Assembly (NCBI RefSeq): GCF_030068615.1 | Contig: NZ_JASJOC010000006.1 | Location: 1-64,000, forward strand | Length of the DNA: 64,000 nt | Source of the DNA: Halostagnicola sp. A-GB9-2 | Lineage (GTDB): Archaea > Halobacteriota > Halobacteria > Halobacteriales > Natrialbaceae | Direction: 5' to 3' | Shown: positions 51,670 to 59,380 of the stretch, in pieces | Position numbering within the stretch: position 1 is the first letter of the stretch | Layout of the letters: the number at the start of each line of letters is the position of its first letter | Made by a program: the position numbers and the translations under genes | Notes under the pieces: generated by a model | Databases searched by the model: none | What the model saw: the letters and a program-made list of their open reading frames with translations, nothing else | Told to the model about the DNA's origin: nothing

Positions 51670-53514
51670 TCAGTTAGAGAACATCGAACCGAGCTGATCG
51701 CGCCAGTCGTTCAGTTCGGCGATGTCTTCCGAAAGCGTCTCGACCTCCGTCTCGACGTCTTCGACCGTCTGTTCGACTTCCGAAACGGTTGCCTCGACGT
51801 CGTCGACCGATTCCTCGACGGTCGAGACGGTCGTTTCGACGCCCTCGACGGTTTCTTCTACTTCCGAGACCGTTCCTTCCACGTCGTCGACGGACGCCTC
51901 GACCGTCGTAACGGTGTCTTCGACGTCTTCGACCGTTTGCTCGACTTCCGAGACCGTTCCTTCTACGCCCTCGACGGACGCTTCGACGGCTTCGACATCC
52001 TCGACCACGCCACCGACATCGTCCTTGAGCTCGGTGACGTCGGACTTGGTCGTCCCGACATCATCTTGGAGGTCGTCGACGACGCTTTGGGTCTCTCCGA
52101 TCTCGGATTCGAGGTCGTCGAATCGAGTATCGATGCCATCGACTTCCTCCGAGAGGGTATCGAGTTGGTCCGTCGCCGAGTTCAGCTCCTCGCCAAACAG
52201 CGCCGTCTCGGATTCGACGTGATCGACGTCCGAAACGACCTCCTCAAGTTCGGATTCGGTGGCGCTGACACGTCCCTTCATCGAGCCCAGTTCCGATTCG
52301 ACGCCCTCGAGTTCGGACCTGAACTGCTCGATGATCTGCTCGCCGGTCCCATACTCGTCGAGGAACTCTTCGATCGCCCCCGAGTAGGCGGCCACTTCCT
52401 CGACGCGTGATTGGAGGTGATCGACCCTCGCGAGATCCGGGCCGTTCATTTCGATATCGAGTTCGGAACGAAGGATCTCGAGATCGCGTTCGCTAACGGA
52501 TCCGGATCGGATTTCGTCCGCGAGTCGGGCACTGACGGAGTGAGGGTCGTCGGTTGGTGTCACGCTCACGTCCGTCTCAGACTCGGATTCGCCGTCGTCG
52601 GCTGGCTCCGTCTCGAGTTCGTCGTCATCGGCCGTCTCGGACGCTGATTCTTCGCCGCCACGCGCGTCGGCTTGGTCGGAGTCGGCGTCGGTGTCGGGCC
52701 CGAGACCGAGTTCGGCTTCGGGATCGTCGACCGACTCCGTCTCGTCGTCTTCCGGACTCGGAATGTTGTCTTCCTCGAAGTCGAGGTCGACACCGGCGGA
52801 ATCCGCCGTATCGTCGTCCTGAGTCCCTTCTGTCTCCGCGCGGTCCTCGTTTTCATTGTCTTCCGCGTCGTTCTCGAGGCCGAGATCATCGGCGTCGTCC
52901 GCCTCGGAAGCGACTTCGTCCGCCGCAGGTTCGTCCACGGCTGGTTCTTCGGGAGAGGATTCGTCGTCGAGACCGGGGACAGCGTCGGAGTCCCCGGAAA
53001 TCATGTCTTTGACGACCTGATTCCGGTCGTCGGTGATGATTTCGTCGATCATGGTGTCGTCGACTTCGTTGCTGGCCGCCGACTCGGATCCGCTCTGTGA
53101 GTCGTCTCGGCCGTCCGTATCGCCGGCCGACTCGTCCCTATCCGCGCTCGTTTCGACGTCGACAGTCGTCGAATCGGTCAGGAATGGAGCCGCCTCCGAC
53201 TCGTCTCCGATGCGGATGCCGTAGACGGTGACGAGCGTCTCTTCGGGGGAGAGCGTTCGCGTAAATTCAACGTGATGGTCCTGGAACGCGGTCCAGTCTT
53301 CGCTGTAGTAGTTGGGATGGAACCCGACGCCATCCATCGGGAACGATTCGGGAATCTCCTCGGAAACGTTGACGGTGATCGCTTCGTCGCGGTCCGAGTC
53401 GATTTCGAATCGAATTGCAGGAACTGGGAATTCGTCGGCTGCAAATAGTTTCCGAACAGTCACCCCATCAGAACGTGTTTCGATTACCTCGTCTATGTCA
53501 GCGGCTGAACTCAT
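51670..53514 (-). CDS. Acidic coiled-coil protein with N-terminal conserved domain
   Basis: A 614-residue highly acidic protein. Residues about 1-110 form a folded domain (VTVRKLFAADEFPVPAIRFEI, GVGFHPNYYSEDWTAFQDHH) that I believe occurs in other haloarchaea. Residues about 115-335 are an Asp/Glu/Ser-rich disordered linker. From about 340 to the end it is helical; residues 520-603 are an array of seven-residue units (TVSEVEQ, TVEDVED, SVDDVEG) in a 28-residue super-repeat. It should make a long rod. No membrane segment or signal is seen, so it is cytoplasmic. Function unknown; a structural or scaffold role is an inference. Confidence 0.8.
   Translation of the reverse strand: MSSAADIDEVIETRSDGVTVRKLFAADEFPVPAIRFEIDSDRDEAITVNVSEEIPESFPMDGVGFHPNYYSEDWTAFQDHHVEFTRTLSPEETLVTVYGIRIGDESEAAPFLTDSTTVDVETSADRDESAGDTDGRDDSQSGSESAASNEVDDTMIDEIITDDRNQVVKDMISGDSDAVPGLDDESSPEEPAVDEPAADEVASEADDADDLGLENDAEDNENEDRAETEGTQDDDTADSAGVDLDFEEDNIPSPEDDETESVDDPEAELGLGPDTDADSDQADARGGEESASETADDDELETEPADDGESESETDVSVTPTDDPHSVSARLADEIRSGSVSERDLEILRSELDIEMNGPDLARVDHLQSRVEEVAAYSGAIEEFLDEYGTGEQIIEQFRSELEGVESELGSMKGRVSATESELEEVVSDVDHVESETALFGEELNSATDQLDTLSEEVDGIDTRFDDLESEIGETQSVVDDLQDDVGTTKSDVTELKDDVGGVVEDVEAVEASVEGVEGTVSEVEQTVEDVEDTVTTVEASVDDVEGTVSEVEETVEGVETTVSTVEESVDDVEATVSEVEQTVEDVETEVETLSEDIAELNDWRDQLGSMFSN
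51706..51957 (-). repeat. 84-base tandem super-repeat in the coiled-coil gene
   Basis: Three consecutive 84-base units (residues 520-547, 548-575 and 576-603) each encode four heptads of the pattern TVSEVE-TVE-V-T-VE-SVDDVE. The first two match almost perfectly at the protein level; the third diverges after its second heptad. It grew by duplication and heptad phase is kept, as a rod would need. Confidence 0.8.
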
Positions 53515-57331: not shown

Positions 57332-58252
57332 ATGGTAGCACGAGGCGATTCGGACGGATACCTATTCGACCTCTACCGCCAATACATTGGCGAGCCGTCG
57401 GGTCGAAACGACATCTATGTTGGATTTGGCCTGTTCTTCGGTGGTATCGGACTCGCGGTTACAGCATTGGTGCTTTTTATTTGGGGGAGCACCCACGAAC
57501 CCCGGTCGACGACGTATGTAATGTGGACGGAACCGGCCTACGGGTTCGGGATGCTGTCGCTTCCGGCGATGATGCTCGGCATAGTCGTTTTGTTACCCTC
57601 GAACCGACGGATGTTGTATACGTCCGTAGCGGGTGCAACGGTGACATTCGTTGCCGTCATGGGATTCTTCTATGCGTACCCCCTAGACTGGAACGGCCAC
57701 GGACAGGATTACACGGTGGAAGTTGTCGCAGTGTACGCGGTCGGCGTCGCGGGACTCATCGCGTCGACAGGCGGCGCACTGATCGCTCACTATCTCGAGC
57801 TCGCACAATCGGCTGGAGTCGGGGGCGGGAGTTCGCTCAAGGAAGAAGAGGCGGACGAGTCCTATACCGATGCGGAGATTCAACAGGATATCGACGCCGC
57901 GATGGAAGACGTCGAACTCTCCTGGGGCGGCGTCGAAAAGGGCGACAATACGAGCCTGAGTTTTAGCGGTCACGAGTTCGACAACGTCGAGATTGACAAT
58001 ACCGCAACGACGACCCGATCGTCCGGCGTCGATTCGCAGGTGGCGGGGCTCAAGGGGCTCAAAGGCGGCGAAACGAAGACAACGACCTCGAGTTCGTCCG
58101 TCGAGGACCAGACGGCGAAACTCAAAGAACTCAGGGAACAAAAGCGGGCCGAAGAAATGGCGACGGACGACTCAAGCCGTGCCCTCGAGACCGTGACAAA
58201 ACCGGTCGGTTCAGTTGCCGAACGGTTGCGCGAACTCTTAGGTCGAAATTAA
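57332..58252 (+). CDS. Four-helix membrane protein, DUF7139-like
   Basis: 306 residues. Four membrane segments lie near residues 28-52 (YVGFGLFFGGIGLAVTALV), 70-90, 95-117 and 127-150. A long charged, disordered C-terminal tail follows (acidic EEEADESYTDAEIQQD, then basic KLKELREQKRAEEM). The DUF7139 match is from memory. It lies 96 bases upstream of the actin-like gene on the same strand, an arrangement I would test as a membrane anchor or partner. Start set at ATG 57332; the frame opens 21 codons earlier. Confidence 0.75.
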   Translation: MVARGDSDGYLFDLYRQYIGEPSGRNDIYVGFGLFFGGIGLAVTALVLFIWGSTHEPRSTTYVMWTEPAYGFGMLSLPAMMLGIVVLLPSNRRMLYTSVAGATVTFVAVMGFFYAYPLDWNGHGQDYTVEVVAVYAVGVAGLIASTGGALIAHYLELAQSAGVGGGSSLKEEEADESYTDAEIQQDIDAAMEDVELSWGGVEKGDNTSLSFSGHEFDNVEIDNTATTTRSSGVDSQVAGLKGLKGGETKTTTSSSSVEDQTAKLKELREQKRAEEMATDDSSRALETVTKPVGSVAERLRELLGRN

Positions 58253-58318
58253 TTCCGTTGCAACGGGACAACTGTCAGTTCTCGTTACCGTGTTCGAGAT
58301 AAAAATAATCCACATAGA

Positions 58319-58325
58319 TTTATAA
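58319..58325 (+). promoter_or_regulatory. TATA box of the salactin-type gene
   Basis: TTTATAA lies about 27 bases before the ATG at 58349, after an A/T-rich run (AAAAATAAT, 58300-58308). The distance fits a leaderless transcript starting at or next to the ATG, as is usual in haloarchaea. This indicates the gene has its own promoter. Confidence 0.7.
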
Positions 58326-58348
58326 GTTGTCGGTGGCCTTCCCAAACT

Positions 58349-59380
58349 ATGGCCAAAGGCCTAGACGTTGGGACAATGAACATCCTGTCTGCCCAACAGG
58401 ATGGCGACGACACGGTATTCGTACAGCAACGCAACTCCTTCGTAGAGATAGAGTACTCGGATATGGCCGAGCAGATGCTCTCCCGAAGCGAAGTCCTCCA
58501 CATCCGAAAGGACGACAAAGTGTACGTCGTTGGCGACGACGCGCTGAACTTCGCGAACATCTTTAACAAGGAAACGCGGCGACCGATGAAACACGGGATC
58601 CTCTCGAACGACGAGAAGTCCGCCATCCCGATGATGAAACTCATCATCGAACAGGTCGTCGGCGAACCGACGTATCCGGACGAAAAGCTCTACTTCTCGA
58701 CCCCAGCAGATCCGATCGACGACGATCTCTCGACGCTTTACCATCAGAAGACGATCGAGTCGTTCCTGAACGATATGGGATACGACGCCGAGCCGATCAA
58801 CGAGGGGATGTCCGTTATCTACTCCGAACTCGCGGACAACAACTTCACCGGTCTCGGTATCTCCTTCGGTGCAGGGATGACGAACGTCTGTCTGGCGTAC
58901 TACGCGGTCCCTGTCATGAAATTCTCCGTCGCCCGCGGTGGCGACTGGGTCGACGAACAGGCCGCTCGAGCGACCGGTACGCCGGTCGACAAGGTTACAT
59001 CGATCAAAGAAGACGACTTCGAACTCGACTTCACGACGGACATCGGCGGCGTCGAAGGTGCCCTCTCGATTTACTACGAGAACCTTCTCGATTACGTCAT
59101 CGAGAACATCGTCAGCGAGGTCGACGAGGAGGACGTCGAGGAAGGTCTCGACGTCCCCGTCGTCGTCACCGGCGGGACCTCGAGCCCGAGCGGGTTCGAG
59201 GACCTGTTCCGTGACCACCTCGAGGACGCGAACATTCCGTTCTCGATCAGTGGCGTTACGCACGCGAACGAACCGCTCTACAGCGTCGCACGTGGTGGCC
59301 TCGTCGCCGCCCGTTCGGACGAAGATGTCGACCACGACCGCGACGACGAAGAAGTAGAAGCGGCCACGGCGAACGAATAA
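58349..59380 (+). CDS. Actin-like ATPase, salactin type
   Basis: A 343-residue actin/MreB/Hsp70-fold protein. The phosphate-1 loop is [16 protein letters not shown] near residue 5; phosphate-2 is [13 protein letters not shown] near residue 171; the adenosine motif is [19 protein letters not shown] near residue 271, and the connect region is [21 protein letters not shown]. The overall sequence matches the haloarchaeal actin homologue described as salactin, which forms dynamic filaments at the cell pole in Halobacterium. The assignment is from recall. The C-terminus is a charged, disordered tail ([10 protein letters not shown]). Its neighbour is a DUF7139-like membrane protein. Confidence 0.85.

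Follow-up and report, generated by a model that had tools for sequence, protein, structure and literature searches.

The volactin gene of Halostagnicola sp. A-GB9-2 lies directly downstream of a gene for a DUF7139 membrane protein. This protein belongs to a dedicated subfamily, the tail of which agrees with volactin in presence or absence in 389/391 genomes of the class (phi 0.99). A functional coupling of the two proteins is close to certain, and the linked DUF7139 protein is the best candidate for the factor that fixes volactin filaments to the membrane. A sequence-only reading of the window (the whole stretch of 64,000 nucleotides analysed) had proposed a conserved membrane partner of an actin filament from gene position. 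The partner itself is now strongly supported, by the genome-wide agreement and by its being kept where the genes are no longer adjacent, and the evidence from clade, tail and co-occurrence is far stronger than position. The actin family, however, had been misidentified.

Both genes of the pair were complete and lay on the + strand, with the DUF7139 gene upstream (Table 1). The spacer was exactly 96 bases (58253-58348), as had been read from the sequence, and the ORF coordinates agreed. Assignment of the upstream product as a DUF7139-like membrane protein was borne out by PF23600, for which it passed the curated cut-off (161 bits vs 30, aa 10-156). About 6 kb from volactin, at 51673-53514 on the - strand, the window also encodes a long acidic coiled-coil protein (614 aa), found near volactin in 26/60 loci, mostly within the window's family.

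Table 1. Features of the volactin locus and of the same tail in a second genome (aa, residues of the linked DUF7139 protein).
Feature	Position	Strand	Basis and remarks
Volactin-linked DUF7139 membrane protein gene	57332-58252	+	306 aa; PF23600 161 bits; member of volactin-linked clade
Four-helix membrane domain (predicted), aa 25-166	57404-57829	+	Hydropathy; AlphaFold2; positive residues in TM2-3 loop and N-terminus
Conserved volactin-linked tail module, about aa 175-275	57854-58156	+	Profile A1, 128 bits; not a Pfam domain
SWGGV core motif, aa 197-201	57920-57934	+	Both G invariant; alignment of 57 orthologues
Tail repeat 1, aa 229-247	58016-58072	+	Consensus SSGVDDQVAGLKGLKGG
Tail repeat 2, aa 255-272	58094-58147	+	Consensus SSTVDDQTAKLKELREQ; similarity to repeat 1
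volA promoter element, TATA-like box	58311-58325	+	CACATAGATTTATAA; about 25-30 bases before ATG; leaderless-type spacing
Volactin gene volA (VolA, actin-like protein)	58349-59380	+	343 aa; PF25216 462 bits
G129 beta-propeller protein with volactin-linked tail	L045:11543-12916	opposite volactin	About 2.5 kb from volactin

The downstream protein had been described as salactin-type, and this label did not hold. It was a full-length match to the volactin family PF25216 (462 bits, cut-off 35, model positions 1-321 of 321), while its score against the salactin family PF25229 was below threshold (12.9 bits, cut-off 27.1). No salactin match was found in the whole Halostagnicola sp. A-GB9-2 genome, which holds one volactin and two DUF7139 genes, and a salactin identity was rejected. 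Salactin of Halobacterium salinarum is likewise a haloarchaeal actin, dynamically unstable and pole-anchored (PMC10746226, PMC10869688), but it is of another family and its synteny is reported to be poorly conserved. Because the actin of the pair is volactin, the argument from growth at cell poles, borrowed from salactin, does not apply. The salactin family did score above cut-off in the control genome of Haloferax volcanii, for which volactin has been called the only identified actin homologue (PMC7617734).

Volactin was well conserved across 59 loci (77-96% identity) and contained no TM-like segment; its AlphaFold model was poor (pLDDT 49). In one genome (G364, C54:57721-67544) the gene was in two pieces, one for residues 1-102 and one for 96-321, with about 8.8 kb between them, which suggests an insertion; the tail profile was still present. 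At another locus a second, partial copy lay 1.2 kb downstream of the intact one (L260:6205-6808).

The window actin is a clear family member of volactin (VolA, HVO_2015) of Haloferax volcanii. Published work, on HVO_2015 only, describes filaments that are dynamic, hold to the membrane at their tips and have a role in disk shape (PMC10869688). Volactin-GFP filaments join the membrane via their tips in that study, which calls volactin-binding factors unknown (PMC10869688). Published work names no membrane partner, in contrast to the pairing found here. In PMC10869688 the main text mentions hvo_2013 to hvo_2020 only as a region of interest, and the linked DUF7139 protein goes unnamed in the main text of the published Hfx. 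volcanii screen. DUF7139, HVO_2014 and HVO_2016 had no mention in the main texts of the open-access literature searched; supplements and preprints may differ.

Hydropathy analysis placed four TM segments in the upstream protein, at aa 32-50, 70-88, 95-113 and 129-147, and AlphaFold2 gave helices at high pLDDT at 25-52, 60-87, 92-115 and 128-166, in keeping with the four membrane helices first noted. The topology was inside-positive, with positively charged residues at the N-terminus and in the loop between TM2 and TM3, and both termini, and with them the tail, are predicted to be cytoplasmic. By prediction, then, the protein is membrane-embedded with a cytoplasmic part that would face the filament, as would suit an anchor or nucleator. 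Foldseek searches with models of the membrane domain and the tail returned no match at E<=0.001. VIA-align returned nothing beyond helical bundles and BAR-type structures at Z below 10, uninformative for helical models, and assignment to a known fold was rejected.

Adjacency was examined in other genomes, at 60 volactin loci that represent nine families with roughly one locus per genus. An intact DUF7139 gene lay directly upstream on the same strand in 53/60, with spacers of 39-225 bases; the exceptions were four loci from Halorubrum (g30), G129, G366 (contig edge) and G060 (a deletion remnant). Since any other neighbour in the window was kept in at most 29/60 loci, the adjacency is not chance. 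Outside the window's family the intact pair was found in 30/37 loci, as compared with 8/37 or fewer for dph2, methyltransferase, rhomboid and rpb11. The pair is thus adjacent across the Halobacteria, and not only here. In a set of 80 named loci from genome contigs, a tail-bearing gene lay directly upstream in 58, Haloferax species other than Hfx. volcanii among them. The gene was also upstream in L223, where the assembly is frame-shifted, and in L260, with a gap of ~0.7 kb, and it was downstream in L227; L224 and L273 stop at the edge of a contig, and the remaining non-adjacent loci were from Halorubrum and Halobellus captivus.

Adjacent genes often remain together in related genomes, and within the window's family the spacing was nearly fixed at 96-98 bases. 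The pairing might on these grounds reflect inherited gene order or co-regulation only, without functional coupling, a reading we consider very improbable. Other neighbours were not kept across families, as noted, and the distribution of the partner in genomes with and without volactin bears on the same question.

The DUF7139 family occurs in 376/391 genomes of the class, so nearly universally that its presence alone is uninformative. In a tree of 176 DUF7139 domains, in which several internal supports were low, all volactin-adjacent domains fell in one clade of 57 (node 0.898). The three non-adjacent members of this clade (G153 of g30, G129 and G366) all came from volactin-bearing genomes. Copies examined from 50 genomes chosen as without intact volactin included none in the linked clade; about ten low-scoring copies from these genomes were outside the tree and were covered by a search with a tail profile. 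The sampled genomes without volactin still held other DUF7139 paralogues.

The tail profile (A1), built from 37 tails alone, was found in 232/233 genomes with volactin and in 1/158 without, while 157 held neither. The two discordant genomes were G060, which has a volactin remnant but no tail, and G187, a draft of about 180 contigs that has the tail but no volactin. Twelve genera contained both states, and the rule was followed within each of them. As the genomes are related, this within-genus concordance is a better argument than the P value of Fisher's test (2e-109). The difference between 232/233 and 1/158 already speaks against inherited gene order as the sole cause of the pairing. Six Haloferax genomes (g43) had neither volactin nor the partner; in Hfx. 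volcanii a full volA deletion is reported to have been unobtainable.

Rearranged loci were informative in the same respect. In Halorubrum and in G129 the two genes were separated and both were still kept. In three genomes of one genus (G106, G212, G270) the pair was duplicated as a unit, each extra volactin having its own upstream partner. In G060 a single in-frame deletion joined the N-terminus of DUF7139 to the C-terminus of volactin. Retention of the linked paralogue after separation, its absence where volactin is absent within the 12 genera, and co-duplication all argue against gene order without coupling. The G060 remnant is a 153-aa frame (L047:8866-9327), one event having removed both genes.

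The TATA-like box upstream of volA was conserved in most of the 60 loci. A spacing of 25-30 bases is typical of leaderless haloarchaeal genes. As volA has its own promoter-like element, the pair need not be one transcript. An operon-only explanation was rejected on account of this element and because the association outlives gene separation.

The C-terminal tail of the linked protein was confirmed to be charged, with 32 D/E and 16 K/R in 151 aa. Alignment of 57 orthologues identified a helix (DIxxAM), the invariant GG inside SWGGV, and the motifs SSGVDDQVAGLKGLKGG and SSTVDDQTAKLKELREQ. The last two each carry one of two copies of V-D-x-Q-x-x-x-L-x-x-L, with a similarity that was matched by 0/5000 column shuffles, and look like duplicates of each other. 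The motifs were at least as conserved as the membrane domain, and the linkers and last 34 residues less so. AlphaFold2 predicted tail helices at 180-193, 234-244 and 258-304, joined by low-confidence linkers.

The GVDxQ and GLKGG motifs occurred in none of the other DUF7139 proteins, which carry a Cys-rich DUF7140, DUF1508 repeats or no further domain at the C-terminus. The paralogues with DUF7140 or DUF1508 have the four-helix membrane domain in common with the linked protein but are without these motifs, and are present with or without volactin. A loose W/F-GG pattern alone was seen in 17/119 other DUF7139 proteins. The window protein combines membership of the linked clade with the WGGV/VDxQ tail (A1, 128 bits). 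The best match of the tail profile among PDB sequences was only E=0.19, viral contigs gave no match, and in a phylum-wide draw of genomes the tail matched solely in those known from the class search.

In G129, with its separated pair, the volactin-linked tail also forms the end of another protein, a PQQ-type beta-propeller, which is a single case of transfer of the tail to a different protein near volactin. The tail may be portable and bind volactin, which would make it a new class of archaeal actin-binding motif array, used by membrane proteins and at least one beta-propeller to recruit volactin filaments; we offer this tentatively, at somewhat less than even weight.

Four TM helices, termini predicted to lie inside, a linked history and a constrained tail, together with a volactin that has no membrane segment, make the linked DUF7139 protein the natural tether. 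Under the mechanism best supported by these patterns, which we regard as fairly probable, the upstream gene would encode a dedicated volactin membrane partner, seated in the cytoplasmic membrane by its four helices, with the N and C termini on the inner side. The flexible tail of this partner (short helix, invariant WGGV, two VDxQ-type helical motifs) would reach into the cytoplasm and bind volactin. The partner would thereby gather volactin at the membrane and anchor, and probably nucleate or stabilise, the filament ends. Several subunits could be held by the tandem motifs, as nucleation or the capture of tips would demand, and such a partner would explain the published tip attachment. Physical binding, which end of the filament takes part, and the activity as anchor or nucleator are what we infer here; the tail would suit a regulator or a cargo adaptor equally well.

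The serious rival readings are those of a negative regulator and of a sensor. The linked DUF7139 protein might be a negative regulator or depolymerising factor, triggering catastrophe at the membrane or holding monomers, rather than an anchor. Depolymerisation of volactin filaments is fast and apparently regulated (PMC10869688), the tandem short motifs could bind monomers, and volA carries a promoter-like element of its own. The near-obligate co-occurrence and the joint losses are as compatible with an anchor as with a negative regulator. For filament tips to attach, however, the membrane must offer some receptor, and the linked protein was the sole candidate in this analysis. We think a negative role unlikely. 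No more probable, in our estimate, is that the protein is a sensor of tension, curvature or osmotic state, or a cargo of volactin, with other proteins anchoring the filaments. DUF7139 is a widespread membrane module on varied C-termini (Cys-rich DUF7140, DUF1508, none), as of an input module, and volactin has been proposed to act in mechanosensing in compressed tissue (PMC7617734). Against this, no ligand or sensor fold was matched at E<=0.001, and the need for a sensor in every volactin genome is not obvious.

Bacterial MreB is an actin with a transmembrane partner, RodZ, the cytoplasmic part of which meets the filament. The volactin pair would be comparable, with a membrane protein as companion of an actin-like filament. 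The systems differ in that the linked protein crosses the membrane with four TM helices and bears its motifs in a tail at the C-terminus, and in that volactin filaments reportedly meet the membrane by their tips, not lengthwise (PMC10869688).

Volactin is a shape-controlling actin of salt-loving archaea; it drives the change from rod to disk and plays a part in archaeal tissue under compression. What is new is one specific, single-gene partner candidate, found in nearly all genomes that have volactin. The probable contact region is narrowed to a stretch of about 100 residues in which some motifs are invariant, and the question is directly testable in Haloferax. If the tail is portable, haloarchaea would own a small set of modular actin-binding proteins.
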